Part shown: in pieces, positions 1,750 through 60,500 of the stretch
Position numbering within the stretch: the stretch's first letter is position 1
How the letters are laid out: each line of letters begins with the position of its first letter
Assembly: GCA_031213475.1 (NCBI GenBank)
Contig: JARUPZ010000020.1
Location: 558,001-622,000 of the forward strand
Direction of reading: 5' to 3'
From: Nereocystis luetkeana
Taxonomy: Eukaryota > Sar > Phaeophyceae > Laminariales > Laminariaceae
DNA length: 64,000 nucleotides
Program-made: the position numbers and the translations under genes
The notes under the pieces: model-generated
What the model was told of the DNA's origin: nothing
Databases searched by the model: none
The model's input: the letters and a program-made list of their open reading frames with translations, nothing else

Positions 1750-2270
1750 TACACCTGGTATAGACGAGAGACATATATTACGCAGCTTGCAAAGTTGAGT
1801 ATCAACTACCTGGTATGTAATCAGTCGAACTCACAGCTGACGTATATTTCATCATTTTATAAAAAAATGAATAATTGCATAGCAGTCAGTGATTGTTAAT
1901 AGTGCACAGCAGAGTAGACAGAGGTAGAGGTGCGTACGTACGAAACCTTCTTCTGCTGCTGGTGGAAATCAGAAATCAGAGCGTGGAACCTTCATTGTTA
2001 TTCAGTGAGATAGGGCTGGTGGAGTGGCGGAGGTACGAACAAAGATCATATATCGCATGTGACGTCATATGATTGAGAGGAATCGGACGTCGGGCGTGCC
2101 ACAGCCAATGGGGAACCGTGATACGTATACGTACGAGTTAGTTCAGGTAAATGGGAAATAGTCAAATGGGGGGTATACCCCCTCTCCTTGTTTTTCCGTC
2201 TATCTGGGAGTATGCATAATAATAGGCAAAACGCGCCCACACGGCAGGCGCTCGCAAGGTCCCAAACCAT
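1749..2270. other. No recognised gene; intergenic
   Basis: Contains one TACCTGGTA palindrome (1807-1815) next to the LINE tail. Nothing else recognised. Confidence 0.5.
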
Positions 2271-2617
2271 CGCCCCGGTGGTTCAAGTGGTTAACCTCGA
2301 ATTCTACTTGTTTGAGTCCTGGGTTCGAGCCCCAGGAGGGTCGGACTTTGACTTTATTTGCAAAAATAAAAAAAGGGATTCAATTGTTGAGAGCGCCTTG
2401 CAGCGTGGGTAGGCACAATTCGATGCGAGTCGACGAGGGAAGAAAAGGCTGAAATCTTCTCGCGATAAAAAAATCAAGGCACGTACCGTAGCGGGAAGGG
2501 GGGAGAAGAGCCTGCTATGTGACCCCGGATCTGAGCTACGAGTTGGAAGGAGAGAGAGAAGAAGATGTGCGAAGATAATGAATGGGATGAGAAAAAAAAA
2601 TAATAATAATAAAAAAA
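2271..2617 (+). mobile_element. tRNA-derived SINE, copy 1
   Basis: About 347 bp. The head looks like a tRNA: a D-arm-like GGTTCAAGTGGTTAACC (A-box region), then a perfect T-arm, CTGGG-TTCGAGC-CCCAG, holding the B-box GGTTCGAGCCC. A unique body follows and the element ends in an A-rich tail with AAT repeats. The same ~340 bp recurs at 18315-18653 with high identity, which separates a SINE from a lone tRNA gene. It would be transcribed by RNA polymerase III and moved by a partner LINE; its tail does not resemble the AAC tail of the LINE seen here. Confidence 0.85.
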
Positions 2618-2894
2618 CCCTGCCCCAAATGGAATTCCGACGTCGTGCTGGTAAGACGCCTGCAGCCCATGCCGAGCACGCACACACTCTATTTTTTTTC
2701 GCCCACGTTCTTAGGCCACAAACGATATACTGTCACACCACCACACCATCATCATCACCACCGTGGCTCAAGAGGGGCAAAAAGCATCCCTCCTTTTTTT
2801 TTACCATTGATTCGTACAAAATAGGGGGCGTAAATCTAGTACCATTCGTACAAGTTGGGGGGCGTAAATCTATTATTATACCAGGTATTAATAA

Positions 2895-3022: not shown

Positions 3023-3650
3023 TAATAATAATATTAAATAATCTTACATACCATAATAACAATAAATAAATAGAGTAGAGAAAAGCCGAAAGTTGGCACA
3101 GAAGGGAGGTAGACTTGGTGCACATGGGTTTCCTTTTGTTTCCCACAGGTTTTCTTCTTTCGGGAAAGTTATGAGTGATCCATGTTGAAGATCGTGCTGC
3201 ACATACCACCACCAATCGACCGCCATTCGTTTTCGCCCACTTGATCGAGAACACAGCAGCAGTGCCTTTATTTTGTTCTGCCAGGTAATATGCCTCAGTA
3301 CGCACACACATCTAATTTATGGGAGGGGTTATTATTACGTTGTTATTAACGGTACCTTACCCACAACACGAACAACGAGCGTGTATATTCATATCACCAG
3401 TACATAGCTGGTATTATAGTATACTGTTGTATGGTGCACGCACGAAATAGTGAAACATGAAATAACATTATTAGTATATTCGAACGAAAATGCAACAACA
3501 GAAGTAGTAGAAGAGGAAGTTTGACACTATACAGATCACACCATTATACCAGGTATTATTTATCATGATGATGACGATGATATCAATATTGATCATCACC
3601 ATCAAGCATCAAGCATTCAGCATCACAGCAGAGCAGTCTAAAGTGCAGTA
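3023..3650. other. No recognised gene; intergenic
   Basis: AT-rich stretch between two MITEs. It holds a TACCAGGTA motif at 3547-3555 and ATC/ATG-rich simple sequence at about 3565-3630. No gene seen. Confidence 0.5.
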
Positions 3651-6240: not shown

Positions 6241-6277
6241 AGTAGCTGATGGTCGGTGGATGCGTTAGATTGTCGTA

Positions 6278-10371: not shown

Positions 10372-11754
10372 TAGTAGGCTGCCAAAGAGTCTGGTGCATC
10401 ATCACTACTTACTATTAATAGCAGCACGAAAAAGTCTAATTCGCATCAACTTCAAGAAGAAAGGTAATTCGCTTTTGCTTTTTAATCCTCTGTCTGGTAC
10501 AGACATACATGTTCTGTCTCTAACCGTCAGTCGATCACTTTGCTACCGTCGTCGTGTATTTCGTCTCCCCGGTTTCAGGAAATAAATAATGGTGAGATGG
10601 GTGTATCTATACTACAGAAAAAGTTTCTACTTTGATTATGAGCTAGTATTATTAGTATTGGTAGCCACCACCCACACACCCACACACATCACACCCACCC
10701 ACCCACCACACCACAACAACGCCGTGTACCTCATTTTCTTTTTACCAGACGCGTTCTGCGATAGAGGTGGCACATTTCCGCTAAAATGGTTTCTGAATGA
10801 CGGGGCTCCTTAACCCAAACTCGTTTTGTCTCCCCGATTTCAGAAAATAAATACCTGCTCAATACTCTGTACCTGGTATATTATTTCTTGCAAGCTGTAC
10901 CTACTAATCCGCCATCGCCTGGACTCTACATGACGTTATAATAGCATTCTTCGTAGCAGGAGGGTGTCTTTCCGTCCGTAGGGGCGGGCAGGCTTCCGGC
11001 TTCCACTGTCGCTCGGAATCGGAGCCGTGAGCCGTGGGCTTAAATTTCTTAGAGGCGAAGGGAGACATTCAGCGATATACAGATATCGGCAGACGAGCTT
11101 TCCCGTGAAAACTACCGCCGTATGGACCGGGCAAACCACAACCTATTGATGGCTGTTGGGGGGTGGGGCATCCTGCTCCCGCCGTGCTATCGTACTGCTG
11201 TGCTGGCATACCACTCTGTCCCGTAATAGAGCCATCGTATTTAATAATTAGGCGCGCGAGCGCGAAGCGCGTGCCTTTTGTTCTTGGTTTTCCAAGAAAA
11301 GAAAGCAGACGTTCAGAATGAGCGAAACCTCGCCTGCTGGGGTGCCGTCTGTGCTGGTGCCGACTGGTCTCTCTCCTCACTCGCACCAACTCCAACTGCG
11401 ACTTCACAAAAAAGAAGAGAAGCAAACTGAGAACAACGCTCAAAAGCATTTCATCGAAGGCAATAACAATTATTAATACCTGGCAGTTTGTTGCTGGTGG
11501 TTGCAGGTTGCAGTCTTCGTGTGAAACTCCCAGCTCCCAGCACTTACGGCCACCAAAACTCGAGGCAAGGGTCACCCTTTCCGAATATTCGGAATGAACA
11601 AGAAAAATACAAATAGGAAAAAACACGTTTTAATACCTTCCGTGTATAAGAAACGTGATATAAGAAAGTGACCTGGCCTTGAGCAACAAATAAGAATCTG
11701 AGCCTTACTCCAAATAGGAGTTTCTTATCGGCGGGCCTATACTGTATATACATT
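10372..11754. other. No recognised gene
   Basis: Contains CTATTAATAG (10412-10421), a CA/CACC-rich run (about 10665-10710) and TACCTGGTA (10870-10878). A 185-codon minus-strand frame (11069-11626) shows no domain I know and is probably chance. Confidence 0.45.
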
Positions 11755-18815: not shown

Positions 18816-20215
18816 CGGCGCGAGATCGCGACCTGGGTAGTCACCTATATTATTACCTGAAAAAGGTGCTACTTACAGACGCCTTTTTCTGGATAGCGAC
18901 CCCCCGTCAGTTCCTGCGATGATGCTCGCCGCCAGCTGGTCGATGAATTCGCTGCCTTCCTTTCCGAGGCGACCATATGTTTGATCCCATACAGCAGTCA
19001 GCAACCTGGCCTGGCTACCTCTGCAGCATCGTGTACCTTTCTCCAACCTCTTCTAACGCACATGACTAATATACCCACGTCCTCTGGATTACAGTATAGT
19101 ATTGCCGTTGTACACGTTGGGTAACTCTGATAGGTTCCATTAAATACGCTACCTAATCGCCCTTTGCGGCACCCCCCCCCCGACCGCCAGCATACGTAGC
19201 CGCTTCCTCCAATGCACAGGTAATGGAGGGTCGAATTCACTGGGATCATATATGTATATATATACCTGGTATGTTTTAGGTGGCCACCTGGCGCAATGAC
19301 CCACGAGCCTCCGCGAACCCCCCCACACGTTAACCTCGTCACCGTACCGATACGACGACAGGCGGCTGCTTTCTGCCCAAGACGGATGGTTCGACATAAG
19401 CCCTCCGCATGAGCACGACGGCACTGCCGACCGGGCTTCCCCCTGAACATGTCCCCAGGCGATATCGCGTGTGCATACAGCAATCGGGCCCTGTTGGGCC
19501 GGGCCACCTTTACGGTAATGCGGCACACCTCCGGCGCCCTCATCTAATGTAATGCGGGAACGCCGATGAATAGGATGACGGGCCTGCTCATAGGCGGACA
19601 ATATTCCCAACGCGCGGCAGCCGGGAACCTTCTGTGGCAGTGCAGTGGTAGCTAATCGATCATTGGTCGAACGTCTCCGCTCATTGTTGAACCTCCAGCA
19701 TCCTGGAGAGACATATCTCGAGTCTCGCAAGGCTCTTGCGTTTCTGAAAAGTGCGTCGTTAAATTCCCGTGATTTTAGGCGACCACAAGGGCTCTAGTTC
19801 CTCGCGACGGTGGTCGGATGGCTTCCACCATAGGTAACGACGCCATGACATGTACTCCGTCTCCGACGCAAGACTCTCTGTTGGGAGCACCGCCAGAACC
19901 GCGTAAATCAATGCCGGGCTAATGACCCCCTCCGTTATCAGGAGACCACGTACAGTAGTCGTGCGTACAGTAGTATTTTGTAATATGCACGGACCAATAC
20001 ACGCCGGTGTCGCACAATGCGGACTATCACGCAACAACAGCCGGCGGTGAGCGTTATATCTATTCTGTACCTACCATAGTTGCGGCTACACCATCGCCTG
20101 CCCAGACGCGTAATGGTAGGCGCAGCGCCTATTAATAACTACAGTATATGAGTCTCCTCACTTGAGGAAGGAGTTCTATACTATATACTATCATTAATAG
20201 TACACTTACATTATT
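18816..20215. other. No recognised gene
   Basis: Two overlapping minus-strand frames of 181 and 193 codons (18998-19730) have no domain or motif I recognise. TACCTGGTA lies at 19263-19271. Unknown; a decayed transposon is possible. Confidence 0.4.
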
Positions 20216-24719: not shown

Positions 24720-27700
24720 CTGGACGGTACGGCACAGTGTTGGCAATCAACGAAAAAAACGAACTTAGTTCGATCAATGATTATCTGGCAGTTCCAAAGT
24801 TGATTCGTCATGGTTATATTACCAGGTAGTATTTAGTGTGTATGGATTCTAGTATGGCAATCCTAAAAAGCAAACAAGCAGCTACAACTGCATGGCAATT
24901 GAGTATGGTTATACTAAACCCCATGTGATGTATTGGGACATTAAAACACGTACCTGGTCGTTTGCTTGTAAATAGCAGGTACGCAGTTTAGAACCGGCAT
25001 TCTAAAACCCATGCACTTCGCTTCTATGGCGTTTAGTATATACCAGGTATCATATTAAAAAACAGACAGTACAGTTAGAGCAACATAAAATCATGGCCTT
25101 CGTGATTGGTTAGTGATCATGAATAGTCTACACCCGGCACCTATTAATAATTTAATCAACATAAATAGGTACCAGGGGTATTAATTTTGTTGGTTGCCTG
25201 AACGGTATCATCCCTAGCCACGACGAACGCCGTGACCAATAGCAACACCCAAGTCGTCGGATTCGAAGGGGTCAGATGGAGCGGGAGGCAAAGATTGTCG
25301 CGAGGGTGGGTCAGTAGTCAGTAGAGGTCGCATGTCGAGCAGGTAGATACAATACTCGCCGTCAAGTTGGCGCCGACCAGTATACCAGTATATACGGCAT
25401 GCTTTATTTAACTGTGTCGGCACTCACAGCCACAATGCACCCGAAACAACAAAATCACGACGAACCTTAATGTTCTCACGCTGACTCACCTCCATATTCT
25501 ATCTTTGCTATTTCATTTGCCTTCCGACAATGTGCCGGGTATTGCACATTCAGAATGGAGAAACTGAAACAATTCGTCGATACCACCAATCTCATCCAAT
25601 CGATTCTCCTTCCCTGCGTATACTCAATGGAATTCGCACTACAGTATCACTATTTCCCCAATTGTTGTACATGCCATTCTATTATCATCGGGTTAGACAT
25701 TGCTATATACATTCGCCGTGCCTGCATCTGCTCTACATCCCACCACCACGCCATGGGAAGTAATCCTCCATCCTCCGCTTGGAGGTCTCGCAGGGCGAGC
25801 GTTGAAGCCTTTGTCTACCTCAATGACATCAGCATCGGTATGTCAATAGTTCGTGCTTCAGCGTATACAGCAGTCCGCATTGTATGTATATCAACAGACT
25901 ACAGAAACAGCCACGTGTAAGGCAACCAATGACCACGCAACGCACCCGAAAAAAAAGAACCAAAGCACAGTACAGTAGTAAAAAGCATCCCGAGAAAAGC
26001 CCTTTCCCCTGCCTTGCAGCAATCCACACCCGCACGAGAAATGCCGCCAACGAATCGGGACGCAACCGAACCGGAATAAAAATAACCTAAGCGCTGTGTA
26101 CTTTCCCCTGGATTTGCCATTGCTCCTGGCTCGTACAGTGACACCAGCAGTGCCAGCAATGGCACTCGGTAAAGGCACTCGGCAACGGCACTCACGAGCT
26201 GAAGGGAAGCGAGGAAGAGGCGGCAAACATCAAATCGCGCCTTCCCACCGACCACGACACCGAAATCGACGAGAGGCAGGTCCGGCTCGGCCTCTTCCGC
26301 TTGCTCCGTCGCGCATGGAGCCGATTCTTCCACCGCCTGAAATGCGTAATTAGAAGCGTTAAAACATGGCGATAAGCAATACTATGCTGGTTAGAATGGC
26401 GATAAATAACACCGTCACAGCTTGGCGATCAATAGCACCATATTCGATACAATGGCCAAAAATAACGCCACCTTGTTGATAGAAATGGAGATAAACAACA
26501 TAAACTAGAATGACGACAGACAACACCATGTTGGTTAGAATGGCGATAAACGACACACTCTTGGTTGAAATGGTGATAAAGCAGCTAGCCTATTCAGTCA
26601 GCTAAGGCTCGAAGACTTTCAATCTGTTTATCATCTTCATTTATCCATCGCCAAGAGCAGTCCGGGGCGCGGGGGTTGTTTTAAATCGAAACAGTCTTCC
26701 TATGCGAAAACAAAAACAGATTTATTGTGCGTGCAGAGATTCGAGCAAACGCCGAGACAACCTGCTGCCGTTGTGGTTCGGCGCCGCGAAGAGGGGCGCT
26801 GCACTGCGGGTAGGACCTAAGCGTCCGAGCCAATGCTGACGGCCTTTGGTCTGGCGGGAACGAGGCGTGCCGAGTGCGCAAGCTTCAACCTGTCTTGGTA
26901 TTTTGTATTTCCCAGTTCGACTGACTGACTTCTGCTGCTGTTGCTGCCGCTGCAGCTGCTACTGCCTCTGCACGAGTCGACGAGTACGTATCCTCGGATA
27001 GGTGCGCGCCGAATGCATTTCTCTTGGCCCGAGCCCGCGCCAGCCGACTGTAGTCTGGCCACGGAGAAACGCGCCACCGGCCGACCGCGCGTCGGGCGCG
27101 AAGCAACGTCGCTGTACAGCTGTGTCGCCATCCAATTCATTGATCGTTCTGCTGCTGCTTGCTGTCGTGGATAAAATCTTGAATTTAGAGACCACGCCAT
27201 TTTTCGATTTGAAAATCTGATGACCCGAGTCGTCGGTATTCGGCCCAAAATCTGGCGACCTGGGCCGTCGGATTCTCAAATCGAAAAAAATCCGCTCATA
27301 TTTTGCATGTTCGGACTGCGTAAGCAGATGCTCTCCTTTTTTAGATCGAGAAGTATGAATCTGAAGCCCGAAATCGAGCCGCATAGGAAACAGCCTTAAC
27401 CAACGCTCCGCCAGTACATGGCGGAGGGGCGAGGAGATCGCTCAGTTGCTGTGCAAGGTGGGTTTGTAGGTTGCAGACGAACACTCATCTCTCCAAGGGA
27501 GGCGTCAAGATCGACAAAGGCAAGTAGAGAGGGACACAAACCCTCCCCTCGCGTTGCAGTAATCACACGTTTGTCGGTGTCGTGTATTACGTGTACCAAC
27601 AGTCCCAATGCCATTCTACCTGAAAGAGAACAGACGAATGCTAACTGACCGCCACTACGAGTACACAAGGTGAATCACAAACGAAACCGACCAAGACGTG

Positions 27701-41784: not shown

Positions 41785-42060
41785 CAGCGGATACTCCGAC
41801 TTGAGCGGTGCGGTACACACCGAAAACACCTCTCTATGAATCGCCTTCTCTCTGATGCACAGTGGGATATACCAGGTACCTTTAGAACCGCAGTCCCGTT
41901 TGGGGACAAAACTACTTGAAAATGGACTGGTTTGTCCCCAGAACGGGACTGCGGTTCTAAAAGGGTTAATAAGCGTAGGGGAGTCCAGCCGATTTGGCCT
42001 CTCTTAACTGCACAACTGTCTTGGGGGTGCCCTCTCCTAAGTCGGGGTGCCCACTGCATT
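41785..42060. repeat. Dispersed repeat, copy 2, with hairpin insertion
   Basis: Matches 30725-30930 block by block (CACCTCTCT, GCCTTCTCTCTGATGCACAGTGGGATA, TCCAGCCGATTTGGCC, CCTAAGTCGGGGTGCCCAC). The extra ~90 bp is the hairpin at 41879-41963, which copy 1 lacks. Confidence 0.7.
41879..41963. mobile_element. Foldback hairpin element
   Basis: Arms CTTTAGAACCGCAGTCCCGT...GGGGACAAA and TTTGTCCCC...ACGGGACTGCGGTTCTAAAAG, about 33 bp each, around a ~20-bp loop. It sits inside a repeat whose other copy lacks it, directly after TACCAGGTA (41870-41878). Confidence 0.75.
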
Positions 42061-42763: not shown

Positions 42764-42921
42764 TTATTCGAGAAAATGGTTGAGGGTCGCTATGTGCGAG
42801 ACGAATAGAACTAACCCTGACCCTAACCCTAGGCCAATCAGACCAAATCAATACCAGGTATTGGATAGCGTTATTCCCTTGGCCACATATACAACTGCAC
42901 CTCACCCATTTTCTCGAATAA
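42764..42921. mobile_element. Small inverted-repeat element with telomere-like core
   Basis: Arms TTATTCGAGAAAATGG (42764-42779) and CCATTTTCTCGAATAA (42906-42921) are perfect complements, with further partial pairing inside. The body includes CCCTGACCCTAACCCTAGG and TACCAGGTA (42852-42860). Confidence 0.7.
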
Positions 42922-45423
42922 ATGGTAATGTCTGTAAACTCTACTGGTCTGCTGGGTTGAGGTCCCGCTCTGGGCGTAAACGCAAGGACCGTGCGGCACC
43001 AATATTTATATCCCGACGTTTCTTACATTTCCGTAGGGAGGGGTGTCATATCATACGACTGCACTGGTCAGGCGGCAGAGATAGATCGAGCGGGGATGCA
43101 GGCACAAGGCACACCGACGATAAGGGCTTCGGCGCATGCGCTGGGGGCATGCGGTCGGTCTGGGTGTCGGTTATCGGTACTTGTACTGAACCGTGAAGGG
43201 GTTGGCGCAAAACGTTCAAAATATCGCGTGAGTCTAGCTCGAGCCTGGACATGCTTGAAAAGCCTGAAAAGGTGCATCACGAAAAGGTGTTTCAAGAGCA
43301 GTGCATCGAGATGTGACAAAAGAAATATGCTAAAACTTCGCACCGATATTTACAGTAGTATGGGTACGACTGTTTTTTTTTTCCTCTGGCGATGGAGCAA
43401 TGAAGAGGAAACTCTTAGCAATACCAAAGCTGGTTCCACCATCGAAACTACTGCAGCGATACGTATAAAAAGGCGACTCGTTTGCCTTGCCTTGCTGTGT
43501 ACCAGGTGTATACCTGGTACCTGGTACCAGGTATGTATTAATAGTCTACGCCTCGACATTTGCTGGTCTTGCCGATGTGTCGTACAAGTTTTTTTTCAAG
43601 TGTTGGCCACCTCGCCTGCGGGGGGGGGGCACGACAGATTGTTTCTCCTAGATTTTGCTTTTTTTTTTTCTTTTTCTCTTTCGATTTGTCTACGTCCTTT
43701 GTATTTGTTTTCTAGTTGATTGTTTCTTTTCGTTTCACTATTTCATAGATTGCGTATGTCGTGTCTGTCGTATCTAGTTGATGACATGGCTTTGCATTGC
43801 CCACTGCAGTGCTTACTGCACACGTGGCAACGTAGTATCTCTGTGGCGTAGCTTGGTGACCACAGAACTTGTATCTCGTCTAGGATTGGAGAATCGGCAC
43901 GGACACTGGTTGTGCTGGATGTCGACGGGTAGAAAGAACGGTTTAATGTGAAGAACACACACACACTATTGGTTGTAATCGGAGTAAACCACACTTTACC
44001 GACGGTCACAGACAGGCCCGACCAAGGTGGAAGAAACGAACCGGGTTCGAACCGGTACACGAAAACTTGACAGGGTTTTCCTCTCGCTCTCCGGCGCGGA
44101 AAAAAAAAAGAAAAAAACATATAAATAGGTGTACAGCAGCAACAGCAGCCAGAACAACAGCTCGCAAAGCTACGAAACACCACAACTTTACCTGCGTACG
44201 TGATGCTGTAGTGCTGGATTGATCCTGTGTCCTGTGCTGCTGCACGGTGTTCGCAGGAGCTCTACGAGTACTCGCGTAGTATCATGCCATCATGCTGCTG
44301 TACCGGTACCGGTACGTACGAGTACGACATCAGATAGCCTACCGGCACTCGCACGATCACGAGGTACATTTCAAACCACGCCAACAGCCTTGATGCTATT
44401 ATAATATCGATAATATCAATGCAATGAATATGAATAATTCAGACCAGGTAGGTATCCGTGTCCGTAGGGAGAGACGCCCAAAATACCGGAAGGCAATAAG
44501 AACACCAACAGCCACATGGCATGCATTGTACACTGTACAGATTATGGCACACATAAGTAGTTGTTGTCGTTGTGGTCGTTGGCAGGGGGGGGGGCAGAGC
44601 AATTAGCAGTCTGGGTGCCGCGACGTCGTCACTGACTGTTCCGCCTCGGCTCGCCTCTTGCTTGCTACCAGGTACCTGGTACGTGGTAGACTACGTACCG
44701 TTGTACCTGTATCTCAAACGATAGACTGCTGTTGGTTTCGAGCAAATTGCCCAGATCTATGTAGCGTTCGGGCGACAGCGTAGCACATTGCAGTGTAACA
44801 GTGGCTTGAGAAGTGATCGCATGGCGAGCTCCCCTCCGGTCCAGCAGCTTGCGTGCTGATGTGTTGGTGTGTTGTGTTGGCATGTCTGATGTTGGGAGTC
44901 GTGAGCAATTGCCTCACAAACAGTGCAGCAGTGTTTGGTTCAAAAATCAGGCTCTCCAGCATACTCACCCAGTTGTCCAGCTTTCCAGTGAAATCTTCTA
45001 CTTTCTAGTCCTCGCTCCTCTCTCGCCCTTTTTCCCTCCCCTTGTGCTCGTCCTGACTCCGTCTCCACCTCGTTCAGCTGCTAATGGTGGGGTAGAACGC
45101 TGCCAAGTTCGAGGCGAGGGAGAAAAACTCCAAACGGTCGATAAGACGTACGTGAAACACGCCTCTAAATATTGTCGAAACCCGGGATGTGGTGTAACCG
45201 CCGAACACACGCCTTTTGGTCCCTGCTTCGTGATTGACGGCGACACGGCCATGGCCATGATACAGGCGGTATACCGAGGCCCACCACTGCATGAACGTAT
45301 AGTGAGCCGGAGGAATGTAATGTAGACCTTGAGGCAACGCGTTTACTTCCCTGTTCGCCAATCACCAGCGCGTTTGGCAAACTTTGATTTTTCTGATTTG
45401 GAGACTATCGACTCTATTTCAGT
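42922..45423. other. Intergenic, 5' side of CFAP57
   Basis: No gene recognised. Holds a cluster of overlapping TACCTGGTA/TACCAGGTA motifs at 43511-43533, another pair at 44666-44681, and a GGTTCGAACC box at about 44042 followed by an A-run at 44100, which might be a very degraded SINE. The promoter of CFAP57 should lie near the right end. Confidence 0.5.
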
Positions 45424-45585: not shown

Positions 45586-48500
45586 GTGAGTTCGTGGCTC
45601 ACGTTGTGCTTCATACCAGGTATGCTACAGTACATACAGAACCGCCCAATGCTGTGTCGTATTATGCAAGTATACGTACGTAGGTTTTCGCCCAGGCATC
45701 AAGACGAAGCACGTGTACCACACCTGTCATATAAACATACTACCAGGTATTAATATTGCAGTATCACTGCTTGTGCTGCAACAGTCGTACTTACAGCTGT
45801 GGTCTAAAGGCATTACACGATAGCCTTTCGTACGTTGTGCTCAGTCCTCAAGAAACACAGCAGTGACGTGCCCCAAAAATCGCGTGGTCTTGCCGCCGCT
45901 TCCCGTGGTGCCGCGCTTTTAGCTCATAGGTGGGACCGCTTCTGCGGGCATCACCGCCCTGGCCCTCACCACCAACCGTCGCCTCCTCGCTGTCGCTGAG
46001 GCCGCCCTCACGGACAGGGGCTGCGCCACAGTCAACATCTACGACGCCTCCACCTTAAAGCGACGTAAGCTACTCTCGTGGCCCGAGCTAGGGTCTTCTA
46101 CCATTGTCGCCGTAGCGTTTTCGGCGGACGGCCGCTTGTGCCTCACGCAGGGCGGTGCTCCGGAGTGGAAGCTAGTGTTGTGGACCGCGGAGAAGGTGCG
46201 CCACGCGAAAGAGGAGTGACACATGAGAGTCACAATAACAACGGCGTAGACAGCCAAAACTGATGGAGAGCGAGAGTTCCACGGGCCGATATGTTCGTTA
46301 CAGTTGTCGATACAGTCAGTGTTTTGAGTTGTAAGCAGTCGGTACTTCGCCTCTTAAAGATCTGAGACATAGAGAGCTGTGTTCTGTTGATTCTCCGCCT
46401 GTTCAAGTTGTGGTCAGTCCGGAGTCCGCCCGCCTCTGAGCTTTGGTCAGTGGGTACTCCGCCGTACTCTAAAGCGACTGCCACTCTGACGTGATTTTGT
46501 CAATCAAATCTGCTCGTTTGCCTCCTATGAACGAAAAGTTAGCGCTGTATCGCATCGACACTGTGATACGTCTGGTTGGGTGTTGACAGGCGGCCAAAGT
46601 GATCTGCTCTGCCAAGATCTCGCTCCCGGGAGCGAACGGAGACCCAGCCCCTGCAGTGAACCAGGCGGACTTTTGTCCGTCCGATGCGTCCGTCATTTGC
46701 GTCACCGGAGATAAAATTCTTAGATTTTTCCGTGTCACAGACGCACAACTCAAGCCTCTGCCGTTGAATTTAAAGATGGAGCTGCAGGGGTACACGGCCC
46801 ACTGCTGGCTTGGGGACGAGCAGGTGGGTACCCAATCTCTATTCCTTCATGCTGCGTATTTACTTCGAAGCACGAATTATCCGCGTTACCTTGTGTAGCT
46901 CCTGGTATGGGCCGAGACCACTACGTCGTGTACTGCTGTACCAGGTATACTGAGATTGTACACTTCCACATTTGCAACTACAGAACTACATGCTAAAACG
47001 AAATATGACCAAGTACTCCTTGCCTCGTGTTGTGTGGGTTTTTCCGAAAAACTAGGTATTCTCCCGAAGCACTCGATTTGCCCGTCCTTACTTGAACCAT
47101 GTCGAGTGTATAGGCTCAGGGGTATGGTTGAGATCGCCTGTGATATATTCTTCTGTGCGAATATTAATATTATTAGTAAAAGTGCAGGTCAACTACGCTT
47201 CCTGCACAAGGCACAAGTCTGAAGTTGGCTGTAAAGACCGTACGCTCAACAAGTGCGGCTGAACGTGCGTCTACCACGCTTTGCACCTAAACTGACCCCC
47301 ACTATTGATAGGACACAACAGCTGTTGTTCGCTGCTGGTCCGTACCATTCCAAGTGGGTACCGTAGAATGTGATACCCTTCGCTAAGAATAGGCCACCAA
47401 CCTCTGCGTACCCAGTACGAGTATCTCCTGTGTCTGTTGTACTATCTGTATTCACGGAGGGACTGCACTCTTTGGCACTGGCCACTGATCAATGCGTACC
47501 CGATACATCCTCGTTGAATTAGCTTCTGTCTATTCTCTCTCAGGAACGACTGCACTCTACACCAGCAGTCTTGATACGAGAACATCGTATCAATTTAGCT
47601 CACATCGCCAACGTAACATTCCACCACCGCCACCGACGTCGCACGGAAACGATCAGCAGGTGGTAGTGTCAACGGACCAGGGAGACCTGTACCTCTTCAA
47701 CAACATGGAATTTCGCGGCGCTTTGCCGTCAGCCCCTGATGACGGCTCGGCAATCTGCAACCTTGCCGCTTTCAGCAAGGGCTTCGTTGCCGGCGGGTCG
47801 AGCGGCGCTCTGAGAGTGTACGAGAGGTCGGACGACCCTCGCGAATTCTTCAAATGTCTTAAGGTGGCCGTTTTTTTTGTTTTGGAGTATGCGCGTGTGT
47901 CTTCGTCACATTGATCTGTTTTCCCCACCCACGGACATTCGGTGTCCGTGCTGATTCTTTGTCCTAGCGAGATGCAAGCTCTATGGTCATAACCTACGAG
48001 ACAGAGCTGTATCTCGGCGTCAAACTGTAGCTCTTAACGCACACTGTTGTTGAGCAGTCGCCTTGCGCGCAGCATGTTGTTGGTAGCGCAAAAACAGCTT
48101 CCTTGCTATGGTCCGTCCACATCTTCGACAACTGAGACAAAGCGTAGTGTTGTGCTGGTTTTCTCGTCGTGGTCGTGCCCAGTATTGTGTGTAGATAAAA
48201 CTGATTGACTTGAGGTTCTCTCCTTGCGTTGACTTGACTGCTTCCGCTTATTCCTCTTGTCCCGTCAAAGACGTTTCATATTGAGGGAAACTTGAGCTCC
48301 ATCACCAACCTTGCAATCAGCCCCAGCGAGGAAAACTTGGCGGTTACCACATCCGACAGCCAAATTTACAGGTGAGGCTGAGGTTGTATGAAAAGCAACA
48401 AGTTGACACGGTATTTGACACCGTGTACCTCTGTCCGCCCGAATGGCTGACGTCATCCAGATACCTAGCCAAGCGCTGAGAAACGTTTCGTGCTACGGTA

Positions 48501-51500
48501 CTGTAGGAGTATACCTGGTATGGCATATAGCATCTGTCAGGCACAGTACTGAAAATTGTGGGGCTCCCCACTTGAGGAGTTTAATGCATCATTCAACTAC
48601 CCTTTTTTATTAAAAGTGAAAGCCAAGGCCGATACACAATCCCATGGTCTGGGTATTTAATAACAGATCGTATGAAGAAAGACAATTTAACCCCAACTTG
48701 AGACAACTTAAGCCCATTACTAATCAGATCTCGACGATATTGGGTAGCTTCCTCAGACGAGGAACTTTGTCAGTCAGAACCTATTCTGGATTTTTTTTGC
48801 TATACTCATAGCCTTATCACCTATCGTAGCACGCGACAAACGTGCCATCGTATACGTCAAGAGGCGCCCACCGTGTCCAAATCCCCCTTTGCCCTTAACT
48901 CTCTCTTCAGCCTTGCCTTATCGAACACGGACATTTTGAAAGAGGACACCATGAACTTCGAAAGGATGGCGGGACCGTTTCCTATTCCTACCGCGACAGC
49001 ACGCCTAGGAGGAGGCGTGGCGAGCGTCCTTTCCTCTCGGATTACGGGTGTTTCCGTCGCGGTGTGGAAGCCCCTGGTGAGTGGAAGTGATTTCGGCGAT
49101 AGTACGCACTGCGCTCGCTGTGTTGCGGTGACGATGACCTGCTGGCGAAATGAGCGCCGGACGAGTGCCCGTCCATGGTGATGGTATTATTTCCTATTTG
49201 TAAAGCTGTGAACACGGCAAGTTGTTAGTTGAGAGGTAAATTGAGCCAATTGACTGTCTGTACTTCGTATTATTTATTAACTATTAATTCCATCTATAAA
49301 AACACACAGTTCGAGCCAAAAACACGGCAGACATACACGTGGAAGAGTGGAAAGACGCAGAACTCCGCAACTCACAGCACGCTACTAGCCGCAATACCTG
49401 GTCAACTGAAATTTATTCGGCGACCTTTTATTTATCACCACTCAGCCCATAGCCCTAGCTGTTCGGCTCCGTTAAAAGTGGGCTATTTCGACTATATGAA
49501 TATGCCGCGCCGTTGGTGCTTGATCGTACCGTCCAGCTTTCACGTGGAATGTCTTACTACTTGCACAACGGTAGCTCTATGTCCAACTGTCGGCCCTATA
49601 CTTGACCCACAGGATGACGACCTCGCCCTTAACTGGCCTTGCCGTCCTTTGTCTCTCTCAGTATGCCCTTCTACGTCAGAAGGAACTACTGTACATTTTG
49701 TGCTAATTCAGTCACGTGACTCAAGTAACCCTACATATACAGTACTGTAGTTCGTTCTAACGAACATTACATCCACCAGGTACTGCGGAGTTTGAAGCAT
49801 CCAATCTCGTCAACATTGATCTCGCGGTATGCATGAGTCACATGACTTGACTAGCCCAAACGACCAACAGATATTTCCTTCTCACGAGCAGCTCTTACCT
49901 CTGTTGAGGACACTTGCCGCGGTTGCGACAAAACCAAGCCAGTGAGACCACGAGAATTGTACCTGGTGCCTAAAAGGGGGAAGAATGTAGAATTGGGTCA
50001 GGTTGCCCGATGTTTGTGTCCCCCGCGCTTCACTTTGATTCATGTTTGTGAGGCCGCACAAGAACATGTAGCAATTTCTGTGAAGCTGCCTCGCGGTCCT
50101 GTAGTAAAATATTGCACCGATGCCCGTTTAGCGGCTTGTCAACTGAGCTCCTGCGACATAATCGTATTGGGCACAGGTGGCAACGGTAGGCGTGGACAAG
50201 GCTCTTCGGCTGTGGAATTTCCTTGACAAGTCGTCCGAGCTGATCAGCTTCTTTCAAGATTCCCCACTGGCCGTTTCCTTACACCCATCCGGACTGTATC
50301 TCGTCGTTGCCTTCGGGGAGAAGGTAACACTGCTGATGTTTTCAAAGCGTGCTACGATAGGCTACAGTACTGTAGTGTATTGGTAGCGCTTTTTATCCTC
50401 AATAGTTGTCACTGACGAGACTCGTCAACCATTTCTTGCGCTCATTAGCTTCCCGATGTCGTTGGAATGAAATTGGTATTTTACAATAATATTCGTTATG
50501 CACCTATTGATAGGTGTCGTCCTTGTTCCTCGGGGTGCACTTTCGTTTTTCTCAAAGTCAGTTTCTTCCATCTTTGATATGTACCTCTACCGTAGCACAC
50601 GTCCCTCAGATGGTCGAAAGGGTAGCCCCGGAGGTCGGAATGGCACTCCTGGGGGTGCTACCGCCAATGTTATGGCACACCATTTGACTCACAAAAATAG
50701 CCGTCGAGTAGATGTTACATGAGCTGCTCCACGTCATCAGTATTTTCCTTCTCTTCTTTCCCCGGAAAACCCATAGCCAAGTGTCAATAAGTTCAGGTAA
50801 TTGCGATAAGCGTGCGATCGCGCCCAAGCGCGGTCTAGGTCGACAGCCGTCTGGGTTAGATCAATAGGTGGTTGGGGTAATTTTTTGGTGCTAGACACGC
50901 TGTGACGTGTGCAATGGCATCAGCGTTGATCTGCCCCCCCCTCTGCTTTGGAGAACGTAGAAGTGAGGCGGAGCGCCAGCGCAACTGGAGCACCTCTGAT
51001 GAGAGACGAAGAGCCGTCCGGCATCAGTACAGTTGCGGCGAGATCCCAATCGTTTCCTTTTGGTGTTTTCGGGTCAAAGATTCAACCTCGGTTGTCTTCT
51101 ACTAGGGCATTTCACTCCCAGCAATCGTTTTTTTTTTTAACGGTCCCGACTTAACGGCTCCAATGTGCCCATGCAATCCTGCTTGTACTTTTTCGAAAGG
51201 TCCGGCTGTACAGCATCCTGATGGAGGATATACATGAGCTCAAAGAGTTCGGGGTGAAGCACTGCCGCGTGGCTTGTTTCAGTGGCGGTGGGCAGTACTT
51301 CTCGTTTGCAAACAACGCTCAGGTGGGGCCAAGGCGGACATGATGTACCGTGCCGTCGACATGGCATGTACCCTCATGGAGTGCTTCTGGTTCCGAGCCC
51401 AACCGACAAGTGTTGCACGTTTTCCCTCCGGCTGTCGACCCAAGCTCTGCGACGAACAGCGGCCTCTTTGTACTAGTTTTGCCGTGTTGCGCTTGGACAT

Positions 51501-54500
51501 AGATACCCTCCTCGCCACTATTAATAGCACGTACCGATACCTTGCACGATGTGTTGCCTTGCATGATAGTCCCTACCTGGTATTGCTTTTGGTGCATGCT
51601 GATTCTGCCTAGAACAGAGACTGTGCTGCCATGGCCACCACAGCCGTCACGCAGCTAATGCTATACCTGGCTTAGTACAAGTACAGTGACTGTGCTGTAC
51701 CGAAATATAACGACCGGTTGTATTGAATAATCATATGAAAGCAATCCTTACATTTCGGCACAGATTGGTACCAGTATGTATTAACCCCTTTGGCACTTGG
51801 AGGCATGCCTTAAGGGTGCCTCAGGGGTGCCTTGAAGAGGCAAAAGTTATGAAACAGGTGACGATTACAGCATGCATCCGCCACGCCATGCAGTGCCAAC
51901 CTAGACAGGCTGCCGGAGCATGATAAGGCGTGTGTCCGGCAGGGCATGCGGGGCGGTGTACGACACGCGTGCAGAATGACAATAAGGATGGCACTAGCAC
52001 GGCTGCACGCTCTTTCCTTCGATGCTTGATGAGACATAAGACACTTGCCGCATTTTTGGTCGCTGCTTTCAGCAAGTTGACCCGTCTAGCCTTTAGGACT
52101 GCACTCCCATCGTGAGGACAAAACACTTGAAATTATGATCAGATTTAGGTTAATGTACGTTATTTCATGTATGTTACTGTACAGCGCACTATTAACAAGG
52201 GTATCGTCTCAACGGAGCTGTAGTCATATACTATTACATTATCTGACGTTTGCGCTGACTTTTTGTTCTCGCCGACGACCCTGCTTTCACTAACTCTAGT
52301 ACGTTCTAGTAGGGTAACCCCTGCCTTCATGGCTGCAGTTGTGTTGCATGCGTGACACAATTTCGCTGCTTGCGTCGCGCGTTGTGATGCCGTAGGTCCT
52401 GGTGTACGAAACATTTACGTGCAACCTGGTCACTTCTCTTAAAGGCCACCAGGGAAAAATAAGGTGAGGCCGTTAGTTCAGGAAACTAACCCCGAACCAT
52501 GATCTTGTCACTTGTCACATTAATTCATTGCCCTCAAATCTAGCCCGCAGTCACAAAAACAGGCTACAAACAGAAACGTACCGATGGAAAAAAAACGCCT
52601 ACCGAAATACTTCGTTCACCGCAGTGCCATTACGCAAGGGAAACGGTATTACGGGTTCTGAGATACCATCCCGTACTACTTGCAAACACAAATATTCCAG
52701 GATAGCACAAATGGTACGTGCATCCGTCAGCCGGCGGCGATTGCGTTTCTGCTGTGGCTTTTATTTGTCGTCGTTAACGGAGCGCTGTTTCAATATTTTC
52801 GTGTGCGACGCATTAAGGTTAAATCAGCGCTGTCGTTACAGTTTGCTGGTTCAGCAGTACTAAACGTTTGTTTGTTGTTGCACTTTGTCTCGGCGATGTC
52901 GTGTCTGCTCCATGCTTCATCGCAGTGGCAGACACCACCCACGTTCGGGAATGTAATGCATTACGTGAACGGACTTGTAAGCCGGCTATTCTTAGCAATT
53001 GCAGAAGCTGTATAGGGGACACACAGGATTCAGGCTCTATCGGCGAGCGATTTGAACCGATTTCACGAAGGGCAAGACCACTCTAGTGCCAGACTCTCAG
53101 CAAACGCTCTACAAATCAGCATACCGTGCGCGCGTGAAGTGAACGGTGTCCACGTCCATGCGTCAATATAATGTCGACTGTGCCTCGGTAGTGTACGGTA
53201 CTCGACGATAGATCTATCGTGTAGACCAGTGTAAGCGTGTCAAGCGAATGCAATGTTATTGTTATATCTGCTTCGGTATGGTGCGGTATACTGTATGACG
53301 ACAGGCCCAACGTGTAGATCAGCGTGAGCATGTCAAACTAATGCAATAGTGTCTGTGCCTCGGTACGATATTGGGCGACACTCGACGATAGGTCTATCGT
53401 GTGGAAAGATCGAGACCGGATGGTGTTGACAGCTAGCAGCGAAGGACAGGTGTACATATGGGAGTCTGCCACCGGAAAAAGGCTGCCGGACACATACCAG
53501 GTAACATACGTATTTCCTTTCGGCATAACCATCTGTGGCGTGTACCGGTATACTAGGATAGTTCTGGAGGTTCTTGTCCGCGCGAGTAGACGAGAGCCCC
53601 CCTCTTTCGAGTTGAAACTGTTACAGTTGGAAGGTGGGCACAAAATATAAAGGCCTTGTGAGCACTTTCGGCGCGTCAAACATCGCGCACAGCCCATAGA
53701 ACATGGATACACCCGAAAGTTGTTTGATTGCTTACGTTCCAAAATGTGCTTAGAAGGTCTGTATTTTGCCCAACTTCTAGTGAGAATTCCCGTCCCGTCC
53801 ACTAGTGACGTGTTCCTTACCTTGCTGCAGTATCACCCTTCACTGTACTGCCAAGGGTTTCGGGTAGACGCGTGCAGGGCGCTGACTGGCCAATGTGGAA
53901 GGATGCGTACTATGATGCGCGCACTACTTGCGTGCCATCGCACTGACACGTACAAAGGGAGGAGCTATTAATAGCTGTTGTTGTGGTAGCTGTTGTTGTT
54001 GTTGCTACCGTTGTTCTTGCTTTAACTCGTCGCGCTTGTAGTCCGTGACCACAAAACAGGATTGTCTACGTAACCCGTGCTTGTTGCGGCGATTGAGTTA
54101 TCCCATGCTGGAGCCCTTGAAGTGCCTGAGCTCTCGCAATCCGTTTTCATCATGAGTTACACTTGCGAAATATAAAATAACCGCTTCATCCCCCGCCCCC
54201 CCCGCATCATCGTGACCCCGCGCGTGTTTTCTTTTGTATATGCACACGCTGTTCTTTGCGTTTGCGTGTCTCGAAGGCTCGCTGTTCTCTTCATGTCGCC
54301 TCCGCCACTGGTGACTTTTCGAGACAGTTCTGTGTCGGTGACGACATGCAAATAAGGTGAAACGGAATGCATCATAGTCTACACTACAATACCGTGGAGG
54401 TACTCGATTGAATAGCTCCGGGGAACAGACCAGTCTTAGAGCGTGTCTTAACGCTTTCCAAAGAACATGGGAACGAGCGGAACGGAACGAGGCTGCCCAT

Positions 54501-57500
54501 GGTCATTCGTTCCGCTCCTAAGTAAAAAACGTGTATGAGCCCATGCTGAATCCTGGGCCTCGCCAGTCGAATCAGTACGAACGGTGAATTTTGCGCATGC
54601 CACGACACCAACATGCTATTGGGCGCAAATTGGTGTCCACGGCCATCCTCGGTGGCCTCCATCTACATCAAACGAGAAGGTTTTTGTTCCCATTCGGTCG
54701 GGCCGTTCGGTCCTCCCGAAGAAGAAAAAGGAGTGCAGCACTTCTTCTTCCTCCTCCTAGATGTATGTACTGTTTTTCTTGGTCTGCTCTGAATCTGTTT
54801 GTTTTCCATAGCCAATCAGCACCAATTCATGCGACACATAGTATTCCATTCGGTACGATCCAATGCTCTCTGGGGAGATTAAGGCACGCTCTTACCGCTC
54901 TTATCTCCGAACCGCTTCTATCCCCGTTTAAGAGCGATATAATATTACCCCGGGATAAAAGCGAAACTCCCTCTTCAATCGGGATACATTTCTGCTTGAA
55001 GAGCGCACAAATTCGGGAAGCGGGAAAGTCGGTCGAAACCTGGCTATTCAAGTTTCGGTGCCATGCCGAGTTAGCCGCTCTTAATCCCGCTTTCTCTTGG
55101 TACAAATGCTACAACGGCTGAGGCCTTCGATGGATTGATGATTGGAGAACATTTTGCACGGTCGAGGTAGCCATGCCATGACATGACATGGCATGACATG
55201 ACATGACAAGAGCGATGCTTCGCTCTACTACTGCTAGGTACCAGACACGGCTTGCTGCTTCACGCATCACATTAGCGGCACATTTTTCTCTTCAGAATAA
55301 TTCACCGGCATCACCTTCGTCATATTAACATATTGACCAGGACCCTTCACCGGTCATGACCCGACACGCACATCGGGTCCAGATTTTTTTGTTCTCACGC
55401 GTCGGGTCGGGGTCGGGTTGGGGTCGGGGCCGGTGTCGGGGCGGGGGAGGGTGGGGCGGGCCAGACTGTTTTCAACTCTGACGGGTCGAGTTGGGTCTTA
55501 CCCGACCTGACCCGTGAGGTTTAACTCGACCCGTAATAACCGCAGCCTGATAGTTCGTACATCATACCGTCATGAAACAAGGCCACCCACTGGCGTTGCC
55601 TTTCAAGGCCGTAATACACACCTACTTGGCGTCCACAAACAGTAGTCGCGCAGCGCAAGTCATTTCAGCACCATGTGTATGGTCTGTATGTTTAAGGTCA
55701 AGGTATTGGGGTGCTGCAACACTTTTGAGCCCAATTTTTCCTCACTGACGGGGCTCCTCAACCATTGTAACCACCTATGCAACCGATCAACCATTGCAAA
55801 TCCCAAACTCTCCAATGTCGCTGGAATGCCGATACTGTGTTACAATATTGCTGTTCGTGGCATGCCCTTAGCTTACCATGTACCAGGTACCAGGTATTAC
55901 ATGGTTTCGTCAAAGTCGGTTGTTGAGCGAATTATAGAGGTCCTCAAGCAAGTCAAGCAGTAGTCAACAGCCCCAGAAAGTTGCGGTGCCACTTCTAGCT
56001 GCCCCCGGCCACCCCTTGCTACCCCTAGCCTTGCACCTCCCGCAACATGACAACATGGCACGCGCCCGTCTGCTTCGTGTTCGGACAGAGAGTTGAACCT
56101 GGTCAAGGGCAAAGGTGCGCCCGATCCCGCGGGTGTGAAAGCTATCGTCTCAACCAACACTCCCTTCGGGACCTTGCAGGTAGGTGGTCATACGTCATGA
56201 CCAGTGGCCAACTCTGTAGCGAGGGAGAACAACCCATGTTCTAAGTCCAACTAACCCCTCATATCAGCGCATAGTCATTTTGAAGCTGCATTCGTAATTT
56301 CCAACCCTTCATAACTCTGCAGGTGGTATTACGCCATGCCCGCTGACTATTCTGTAGCGAAGGAGAATATTCAAACATTGAGCGTAAAGCCTGGGGTCAG
56401 CGCTTAGCTCGTTTCTTTAAGTATTGCACATGTATACAACTCAAATGCCGGGTAGTTTATGTCCGGAAAGTGGGTACACTGCTAAAGGGATTCACTCTCA
56501 AATGCCCATCACGCGGTGTCATGCACTGCCACGCTCCAGACGCGTGCCGAATGGAAGTTCATGTTCATTGGGTTCCTTTTATTGACCCAACCAAGGTTCG
56601 CATGCTTGGGTTGGTATGGCGACAGGATGGCCTTAATTTAGGTTTTGTTTTTCTTTGAACTGGCCCTCCGTTGCCTGCCGACTCCTTTCACACATCGGCC
56701 AGATCACGATCTGGCTGATCTATCTTATATATATATATATATTTCTGTCTGCCGTAGATCATCCAGATCGTGTAGATCCTAATCTGCTGTGATGAGAGGT
56801 TGTGCAGGATCTGCATAGTACATTTGTACAGATCCAACCCAGCAAACCTGTCCTAGATCATGCAGATTGCACGGCTCCCACGCGGCAACCTGAGCTAGAT
56901 CTTATACGCCATGATAGCATCCGCCCTGAACGATCTAGATCATGCACTGTGGGAATCGATTGCCTGTAGATGATCTATATAATCTGTCCGATATGTGGAG
57001 TGTTCTGTGGCTGAAGCTCCCGACAGACAACGGCGACTGTTGAATGGTTTGTGCAATGCTACTTGTGCGAACGCCGCGTTCACCAAGCGCTAACGCAAGG
57101 TCAAACCCATACATCCGATCATTCACTACCGCTGACTAGTTTCCTGCCGGCGCATTACCGCCCTATGTGCACCGCAACGTTGCTTTAGATCCTGCTCTTG
57201 CTCTCGCATTGACTCATCGCCAAAATTGAGCGCGTGGTCACAAGACAGGCTCCAATAACTCCGCAGTGGAAGAACACCCGGCAAACACAAAACACAACAC
57301 AAGCGAATCGTATCGCGCCGAGACTGAACTCGAACGAAGGAGTCCCTATTACACTTCAAAGTTCCTTATACCTGCCGTGTGGAAATGGCAGTCGTCTGGT
57401 GGCTGAGGTTTGTAGGCGTGGTTCCAGGCGCTGTTAGTGCACCTTTCCCCGGTCCACAACCGCAAGAACACCTACAGCATGTTTGCTGTTGTTTTTATTC

Positions 57501-60500
57501 CCATCCCATCTACCAGGTACAATATCTCCCCTACTCTTCCAGGTCCCTCCCTCCCTTTCGTAACTCAGACCCAGGGCCACGTGGCGGCCGCTCCCATTAG
57601 TACGGCGCATGCGTTCATTTCTGTCGAGGGAAGAGTTCAGCATTCTGTTCCCTTGTCGACTCGCTTGCGTTTCCCCTGAATAAAAACGTTTCCTATTTAA
57701 CAAAACCATTCCTGCCGTCGAGTGCCAGATCACCGCCTCCACACCACGCCCATCCCGCATCCTTGAGTTGGTGTGGTAACAGGCTGGCCTTGATTTTGGC
57801 TCCTTTTTTTTCACTCAGTTGCTTGCCGATTCGGTGTGTGCGTCTTTCACACATCGGCCAGATCACGATCTATCTGATCTATCTGATCTATCTGTCCACT
57901 GTAGATCATCTACATATCATCTAGATCTTGACTTGGCGTTTATGAGATGTGATGCAGGATCTGTGTACAGTGGTACCTTCCCCGTCTGCACTGATCCCCT
58001 CCAACCTATCCACTCCATTCTATAGGTTGCGGACAAGGTCAAGATGTTATTTGCCGGGACGGCGCAGCCAGGCATGCCAGGGGCAATCCGGGCATACCCT
58101 ATCGGACAGGGGGCGCCCGCCGGATCTGCTGCGGGAGTTGGCGGTGGCGGTGGCGGAGGCGTTGGGGCTGGCGGTCATGGCGGAGGGGGGGGCGGGGGGG
58201 GGAGGGGAGAACTTAATGGGGATTTCCAAGAGTATGGATGCTTGTCTCTTGCGGTGTCGTGCATGGCCTTGAATCACGACGGAAGCCTGCTGTTTGTTGG
58301 GGGAGACGATGGCGTTCTGGCCATGTACTGCGTCGCTGATGACGCTAAAGATGCAGAGAAAAAGGTGCGTGCGGCGCTTATACTGGCCTGTTGTATTCTC
58401 GAAGCAGGGTGCGCCAGAGAACGGCGACTTTCACGTAGACGCAAGGGTTTTTTCTGTCTCTGAGTTAATTGATGTAGAGCGCCTCCGCCGGGGGGAAACA
58501 CCAGCCGATCTCAGCGGTTGCCGTCAAGGTTGATAGCGACGCTTTCCAAGCGCTGTTTGCCCTCCGCTGTTCTCGGCATTGAGCTGCAATCATGGCTACC
58601 GTAGAGCGTGACCGACCTGCTTGAAAACTTATCGATGGCGGGTTTCGGAAGTGAGTCACCGTCGTTGCCACAGTGTGGGATATGCCACAGTTACAGCGCA
58701 GAACTAAAGTACGCCAAGTGGGGTAGGTGTGGGTTGTCGTTGTAACATGTTTTAGCTGTGACTTGTAGTTGTACCGTAGGTGACACCGCTTCAAGCACAT
58801 AAAGCGAACAACGACTTAATCCCTTTCGAACTCCCCCTGTGTTTTTGGGGACAAACTTCTCGGAGTTTGTGTGAGACGATTGAGATAATAGTTTTGCAGT
58901 TCTCAAGGGGTTAATCACCACCGAACATGTTTTGTCTGAGGTGAATCCGCGCTGAGATAGCAGCGAGCTAATCTCGCACACATTTCGTTGGTTTACTTGG
59001 CGATTTTGTCAGGCGAGAGAAAGGGATGCTGTGGAGTACATGGAAGAAATTCTTGTCACGAGGACGGACATTAAGGTGCAGGCCAAGCAGATGGAGGGGC
59101 TGAAAAATGCAGTCGACGAGTTGGTACTGAACAACGACTACCAGCTACGCCTGAAGGACATGAACTACAAGGAGAAGGTGGGCGCGAGTATCGCGTGCTT
59201 ACAGTAGGTCCTACCTCTACATCACGTGCCTACCTCTGTTGCGGACATGAGCAGGAGCACCGCCTTCTGCGCGATAGATTTTTTCTGATAAATTGGACGG
59301 GGTTGAAGACAGATACCCTTGGCGGCTTCGGTTTTTTTTTGTGGTGGTGTCATGAAACGCCTTGTTTGCTTGTCCTGCAGGTAAGAAGAGGGGTGCCAAT
59401 AAAATGAGCAGTGAACGGACGATGAGCTAGCGTTGTAAATACAGCTTGCAGCTGGGGTGGAGTCCAGCGGCGGCTTCAAGTGCTTGCCAGTCCCGTCTCA
59501 TAGAGAGAACCACACGCCGAACTGCACCATAACGGATGAGGTCGCTGCCAAGTCTAGTTGCCGCTTCTCTGTATCGCGGCATCCTTATCTCTGTGTCCAC
59601 CACCCTGCCGTGCTGCCGCGTCAATGTGAGCGAATTAGACTCGGGAGGTGACCGACAAGTTTACGGTGGAGGTCGAAATGGACCATCGCTGCTACGAAGA
59701 GCTGCTGAATGAAAGGAAAAACATGGAGTTGACCTACGAGGAGAGGATTGCGCACCTGCAGGACCAGCACGCTGAGGTTAGCATCTACCCTATTATACTA
59801 GGATACAGTACGGGCCCGCCAACGAGAAACCCCTGTTAGTTGACTAGAGTATAAGCAAGCCTTATACTCCTGTTGTGGCACCGTCCTTGTTCAACGTTGA
59901 GCTTATCCTATCATTTACCTGGTAGGATTTATTGTGTTGTAGAGCGCTCGCCGCTTAGCCCATGTTCTTCTCCATTTTTTTAGCTTTCTCCAAGAAGCGA
60001 GGCCTATGTTTTTATTGCATTAGCTCCTTTCTTACTCGTGGGCCTGTACTGGATAGGAACGTGTTTCTGCCGTAAAACTCATCCCGCTCTACTTCCCAGT
60101 CGCTTTCCCGAAAACATGTGTGCCATTGTTATGGTGGTGTCAAGGCCGGGGTGGGCGTACTCCGTTCTTGGCTACCGGCTTCTTACCCACCACGGCAATA
60201 GTAGTCGATGTCGCCGTGTTCCGCGTGATCCCGTTATTTGTGCTGTACGTTGATGGCGCTTGTGCACCGTGCGATAAAACTGCTGCAGAAGCACCCACGA
60301 TTCCATCGCCTCTCTTCGGACAGAACTGACCTACGAGGAGGAGTCGCAAGCACGAACTACTGTTCTGGTCATACCCCGGCCCGTGAATGACACATGTCGC
60401 GATGCACTTTTTTCTGCGTCGTGTTATAGAAGGGTTTGTTATTTCGAAGCATGTCATGGCCATCGTGTCTTGTGCGGTATGTAATAGCGTGTCCGCTCCA

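Follow-up and report, generated by a model that had tools for sequence, protein, structure and literature searches.

The window, by which we mean the whole 64-kb stretch of DNA analysed here, contains the palindromic word TACCWGGTA 26 times as an exact match, 15 of the copies being TACCAGGTA (centre A) and 11 being TACCTGGTA (centre T). Isolated copies of TACCAGGTA lie at 2879..2887, where the word adjoins a MITE of a family that we call A, and at 3547..3555, 24820..24828, 25041..25049, 41870..41878, 42852..42860, 45614..45622, 45741..45749, 46939..46947, 53495..53503 and 57511..57519, and isolated copies of TACCTGGTA at 1807..1815, 10870..10878, 19263..19271, 29216..29224, 31598..31606, 48512..48520, 51574..51582 and 59916..59924. 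The rest sit head to tail, overlapping by a shared TA at a 7-bp period: three units with centres T, T and A at 43511..43533 (exact at 43511, 43518 and 43525), two with centres A and T at 44666..44681 (exact at 44666 and 44673), and two with centres A and A at 55881..55896 (exact at 55881 and 55888). All features in the window are given without strand assignment. The first-pass annotation had counted the same 26 copies, placed four of them below 19 kb and described overlapping clusters, all of which holds on exact counting; its coordinates are likewise correct save one, listed as 53496, which is really 53495. The strong over-representation that it put at about 50-fold comes to about 42-fold under an order-2 Markov model, which expects 0.61 copies for both words jointly, and an order-4 model expects 1.2. 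An exact-word count of TACCSGGTA in the window gives zero.

Two old copies of a second MITE family, D, lie at 42963..43046 and, with one end reading TACCAATCTG, at 51688..51771, each found by profile and by the covariance model R2 described below (65.9 and 69.7 bits, respectively, each copy being itself a model-building sequence); a possible truncated D end, TACCACTCTGTCC, at 11209..11253 has a 13-base end match and profile E values of 0.43-0.75 only. An open frame of 53 residues, with WD40-repeat matches at residues 18-50, reaches TACCAG/GTAACA at 53495, and it is plausible, judging from the reading frame and the CAG/GTA within the word, that this copy doubles as a 5′ splice site. Rfam and tRNA scans returned no matches in the 64-kb window.

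The abundance of the word is a property of the genome at large. Across the whole assembly (465,085,209 bases in 1,987 contigs) TACCWGGTA occurs 182,395 times, compared with 1,744 for the reversed-pattern control, a ratio of 105; the density in the window (0.406 per kb) is ordinary for its genome (0.392 per kb, or one per 2.5 kb). In a 264-kb sample, the window plus twenty 10-kb stretches from set positions close to the beginning of 20 long contigs (a choice that is not strictly random), TACCnGGTA is the most frequent nine-base palindrome, with 99 occurrences vs 26 for the runner-up, and its central W is strict, 102 words having A or T and 8 having C or G in a 282-kb sample. The 60-base flanks of the window sites have a mean identity of 0.30 (maximum pair 0.48), against 0.28 (maximum 0.42) for random positions, and since the flanks are unrelated, TACCWGGTA does not represent a single repeat family. 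The two findings that the first-pass annotation had named as telling against its proposal, a genome-wide count near expectation and membership of one ordinary repeat family, are thus replaced by a count roughly 100 times that of the reversed word and by window copies that have no flanks in common.

Seven-base gains at TA

The TA-sharing overlaps at 7-bp steps suggested that CCWGG plus a TA is inserted into TA. We therefore considered every TACCWGGTA with a spanning homologous alignment (9 or more of 14 bases identical per side) in a 316-kb sample that includes 11 loci, L030-L040, originally fetched for another purpose. At 13 of 19 such sites at least one homologue has a clean 7-bp gap, with TA in place of TACCWGGTA (63 sequence pairs), compared with 10 of 363 sites for the control TA-N5-TA; CCWGG and a duplicated TA were therefore added at TA. 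The 13 sites represent about nine distinct places, with flanks judged by eye, because L023 and L026 share one place and L030, L033 and L038, with two units, share another. At the latter, copies carry no unit, one unit with centre A, one unit with centre T, or two units. The six sites without a clean gap comprise two at which all homologues carry the identical word (L019:2498 and L040:3205), three at which homologues are gapped or unclear (L025:9447, L037:1255 and L039:1977), and one, L034:1499, at which a point substitution fits better than a 7-bp gain. Such a gain has the shape of an excision footprint from a Tc1/mariner (Stowaway-type) element, TA-CCA/GG-TA or TA-CC/TGG-TA.

A second scar serves as an internal control. 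The word TATTAATA shows a clean 6-bp gap at 13 of 15 sites with homologues (control, 15 of 258), the 13 amounting to about seven places because six come from copies of a single repeat and another two occupy a common place, and CTATTAATAG occurs 22,282 times genome-wide vs 267 for its control. MITE family A, about 105 bp long with the TIR TTACGGGGG (also given as TTACGGGGGACC), has a TA duplication that is seen in two filled/empty pairs, L003/L002 and L027/L002, and two bases from each of its ends placed between two TAs make TATTAATA; family A is the likely parent of that scar.

The units of TACCWGGTA also recur head to tail throughout the genome, in 15,917 pairs (control, 2), whereas random re-insertion would yield 1,300 to 2,600, an excess of 6-12-fold. 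Both units have the same centre in 40 of the first 59 distinct pairs listed (p = 0.009), and therefore local duplication may account for part of the tandems. We also considered a target preference that makes scars favoured targets and so produces tandems; we discarded it, the likelihood ratios being only 1.13 and 1.39.

Scar variants and candidate parent elements

Variants of the word agree with cleavage close to a CCA terminus, other numbers of bases being kept from each end. Relative to expectation at even composition, the 316-kb sample has 22 copies of TACCGGTA (2+2) vs 4.8, 35 of TACCAGTA/TACTGGTA (3+1) vs 9.7, and 4 of TACCATGGTA (3+3) vs 0.3, and among the first 100 TACCNNGGTA places listed genome-wide TACCATGGTA accounts for 13 and TACCTAGGTA for 1. 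As TACCGGTA, TACCAGTA and TACCATGGTA all exceed expectation and TACCTAGGTA does not, the terminus of the parent would be CCA. Those same first 100 places also include 34 of TACCAGGGTA/TACCCTGGTA, 7 of them in one array with 528-bp steps, which a CCAC terminus does not predict; the 4+2 products of such a terminus are TACCACGGTA/TACCGTGGTA, seen 0 and 2 times. A further 14 are TACCCGGGTA, of which the footprint model gives no account.

The scars carry a target signature, symmetric on both sides, in 178 half-sites from scars without tandem copies. Counting positions from the TA, A at +1 falls to 9% from the 20% seen at all TA sites, T at +6 rises to 52% from 27%, and A at +7 to 47% from 27%. Forms with one mismatch number 118, against 57 expected and 102 exact words, and simple arithmetic from this excess puts decay at about 7% per base.

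The element that we propose as parent, family D, is a 79-bp Stowaway-like MITE with the TIR CCACTCTGTCCGGAAAT and TA duplications, first noticed in locus L009 and then at further loci. A sequence-only model gave way to one with a hairpin, the covariance model R2, built from eight copies on both strands; in the 316 kb it matched its eight building copies and one partial copy, with no further full copy, and for that reason adds little independent evidence. A genome DNA search with the L009 copy matched at all 40 scored places (40 scored of 114 candidates), returning 52 match rows because the hairpin matches on the opposite strand too. We fetched 33 of the 39 other loci, 22 of which share flanks and belong to a larger repeat with D always at one position within it, while the other 11 have unrelated flanks, as judged by eye from the alignment, and are taken as independent insertions. 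These 11 copies, CCACTCTGTCCGGAAATGTAAGGAACCG...CGGACAGAGTGG, are 79 bp long in ten cases and 78 bp in one; seven are flanked by TA at both ends (L053, L054, L059, L062, L063, L068 and L069) and four at one end, and it is from these flanks that the TA duplication of D is read; seven start with CCA and nine end with TGG. With 27 of 39 bases pairing between the halves of its consensus, D is a short, non-coding, hairpin-like element with TIRs.

The insertion sites of D resemble those of the scars. Scored on the scar signature, the independent insertions, 11 in number with 22 half-sites, reach +19.0 bits, compared with a mean of -18.3 (sd 7.8) for random TA sets, none of 20,000 of which attains the D score; on the TATTAATA signature the same half-sites score -32.3 bits. 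The ten D copies compared are 7.7% from their consensus, and the ages of D copies and scars agree. The inner bases of the scar also match the first bases of the D TIRs, as read from the CCA and TGG ends, the TA flanks and the variant counts, the 4+2 variants being a misfit. No copy turned up with TACCWGGTA standing in the place of a D element, and a query made of joined flanks (40 of 176 candidates scored) yielded a single copy lacking D, L074, in which a deletion has left GG-TA. We dropped the single genome match to the scar word predicted for the place where the larger repeat carries D, its flanks beyond the 29 bases being non-homologous.

Other candidates for the parent fared less well. A CCAG terminus, which the variants had led us to infer, is not borne out, the fourth base of D being C, and the candidate parent CCAGGCACTAACT was dropped, its copies being homologous also outside the supposed end. 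TIR scans for CC-ended elements over 282 kb turned up nothing young; the copy of D at L009 is present in them as one end pair with 14 of 16 bases alike. The transposase domains PF13358 and PF01359 had no genome match in a six-frame search that breaks at introns and that, for PF01359, ran without a positive control.

Weighing the explanations

Considering the form of the gain together with the terminus, target and age of family D, we favour the reading, at a probability of about 0.8, that TACCWGGTA is a footprint left on excision by a TA-inserting, cut-and-paste DNA transposon system of the Tc1/mariner type, with MITE family D as its most likely parent. The element would enter at a TA and duplicate it; upon leaving, it would abandon the TA duplication plus three bases from one terminus and two from the opposite one, giving TA-CCA-GG-TA or TA-CC-TGG-TA and making the site 7 bp longer. 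On one strand the transposase would likely cut within the element, three bases in, and each flank would then keep its TA and a 3-base CCA overhang. A join that loses one A (3+2), or an A:A mismatch repaired to A:T, would yield TACCAGGTA or TACCTGGTA, whereas a 2+2 join would yield TACCGGTA and a 3+3 join TACCATGGTA. We also infer that the scars come from D itself and not from a related element sharing its terminus, that a mariner-type transposase was the agent, and that end joining sealed the break.

It is conceivable, though on balance unlikely, that the scar is a true transposon scar whose parent is another mariner-type family with a CCA or CCAG terminus, perhaps low-copy or extinct, with which D shares only the type of transposase and the taste in targets. 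The TACCAGGGTA/TACCCTGGTA excess would suit a CCAG terminus, and by a crude estimate the scars outnumber D copies roughly 13 to 1; however, the 282-kb scan contains no convincing CCAG-terminated element once CCAGGCACTAACT is set aside, and D agrees with the scars in its terminus and TA duplication as well as in its target signature and its age. We consider it very improbable that no transposon is involved and that some other enzyme makes a templated 7-bp insertion at TA, for example by mending a programmed break in one fixed way. Such an origin would sit well with the great uniformity of the product and with the occurrence of head-to-tail units, but it must contend with the presence of a transposon that has the right terminus, duplication and target signature, and with a second MITE, family A, that stands in the same relation to a scar of its own.

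Readings without any insertion reaction fare worse still. That the word is palindromic and very abundant might suggest a selected protein-binding site spread across non-coding DNA, yet its copies arise as entire 7-bp additions at TA within copies of repeats, have decayed about as far as the MITE and have unrelated flanks, and we give this idea hardly any credence. Protein binding is superfluous for explaining TACCWGGTA, and nothing that we found speaks in its favour. The three readings offered by the first-pass annotation are accordingly supported in part: a trace of a mobile unit and a product of repair or insertion hold jointly, and the protein-binding palindrome falls away. The last alternative, to which we assign next to no weight, is chance, base composition or one ordinary repeat family. 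Higher-order Markov models do absorb part of the excess, which they do because the word itself is common, and against such an origin stand the 182,395 copies vs 1,744 of the reversed word and a flank identity between sites that, at 0.30, barely differs from the 0.28 between random positions.

Beyond the origin of a single scar, one may ask what the excision system, if such it is, has done to the genome as a whole. If decay is 7% per base, the scars including decayed ones would number about 326,000, and exact scars (182,395) stand to D copies (about 14,000) at about 13 to 1, the latter figure being a crude estimate from 8 full matches in 264 kb, of which 3 fall within a single 10-kb stretch. 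A tentative idea, which we hold at clearly less than even odds, is that one mariner-type MITE system wrote hundreds of thousands of near-identical 7-bp scars, that leaving was the usual fate of its elements, and that the units multiply in place by renewed visits or by local duplication, as a minimal self-extending unit.

Known systems and significance

Excision footprints of transposons are already known as a kind. Sleeping Beauty leaves the scar TACWGTA, a 5-bp gain in which, on the overhang model, the central A or T comes from annealed 3-base overhangs, compared with the 7-bp gain here. Both Sleeping Beauty and the Tc1 element ZB (PMC7913693) resemble the present case in having a TA target with palindromic neighbours and a small footprint; ZB was assayed in cells, whereas ours is a genome record. 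The footprints of Stowaway MITEs and of rice Osmar5, according to PMC1925063 and PMC4561436, keep the TA duplication with TIR fragments of 1-4 bp inside, a close likeness to the retained TA duplication and short TIR remnants seen here. Those footprints, as described in the passages concerned, are few, varied and from single loci, whereas here one 3+2 footprint dominates and occurs 182,395 times. The Stowaway MITEs and mariner-like elements of carrot (PMC6881990) share with D the TA duplication, and their TIR CTCCCTCCGTCCC has CTCYGTCC in common with the D TIR CCACTCYGTCC; unlike them, D begins with CCA and not CTC and is known without a linked transposase. Compared with the carrot TIR, D is only partly alike to a CTCCCTCYGTYCC-type terminal repeat.

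The brown alga Ectocarpus has Mariner-Tc1 elements, almost 12,000 copies and mostly non-autonomous, according to PMC12477816, the main text of which is without the words footprint, excision, MITE and palindrom. As a separate observation on the present genome, PF19114 (EsV-1-7) has at least 150 matches (150 scored of 1,713 candidates), and the EsV-1-7 family is expanded in brown algae and patchy elsewhere according to PMC7457493, which makes a brown alga the most likely host. No report of a genome-wide footprint word appears in the titles and abstract openings among the literature matches listed. What seems new here is the number and uniformity of a single footprint word, together with departures that apparently outnumber the surviving copies.

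In finished genomes excision is difficult to recognise, and a uniform scar makes past excisions countable as to where they happened, when, by decay, and at which target; TACCWGGTA may thus act as a fossil record in which the departures of transposons can be counted. Each visit would add 7 bp, with a frameshift if it falls in a coding exon, and would supply a CAG/GTA word able to act as a splice donor, as may hold at 53495. Set against surviving copies, the scars could gauge how often a MITE departs without replacement, an input that models of MITE spread need.

Family A elements and their probable excision footprints

Four copies of the family A MITE lie in the window, at 2894-3024, 3649-3764, 10262-10376 and 35539-35650, and counting by element ends gives about 17 in the 264-kb sample formed by the window and 20 fetched 10-kb stretches. 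The element is about 105 bp long, carries the terminal inverted repeat TTACGGGGGACCATAG and duplicates TA; its probable excision scar is TATTAATA, with a preference for CTAG targets, and CTATTAATAG, counted for this scar, occurs 22,282 times genome-wide.

At position 5630 of fetched locus L010, a TACCGGTA scar with a 6-bp gain sits within a family A copy, and homologous copies show a clean gap, free of the scar bases, in 13 of the 14 alignments that span the site. Because this scar is nested in the element and missing from most alignments, the time order of scars versus MITE insertions can be obtained.

Other families and a cluster of family D

A further MITE, palindromic and roughly 90-100 bp long, has the ends TTAACCCTTTTAGAACCGCAGTCCCG and occupies window positions 41881-41969 and, as one example among many loci, L024:8557-8653; it is very common, was seen solely as alignment ends, and is perhaps piggyBac-like with a TTAA target, which is a guess. 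When the first 100 listed occurrences of TACCNNGGTA (contig C1 of the assembly) are sorted by their full word, 14 read TACCCGGGTA, several of them near each other; this word is perhaps the scar of yet another family.

For family D, the 79-bp proposed parent of TACCWGGTA, nine of the 40 scored places fall in one 540-kb stretch (C20:5737370-6277101), spaced 44-145 kb apart, four on the plus strand and five on the minus, in what looks like a segmental amplification.

A scar at a possible exon end

A WD40-coding open frame (window 53342-53503) extends as far as TACCAG|GTAACA, where the scar may supply both the 5′ splice site and the last two codons of an exon.
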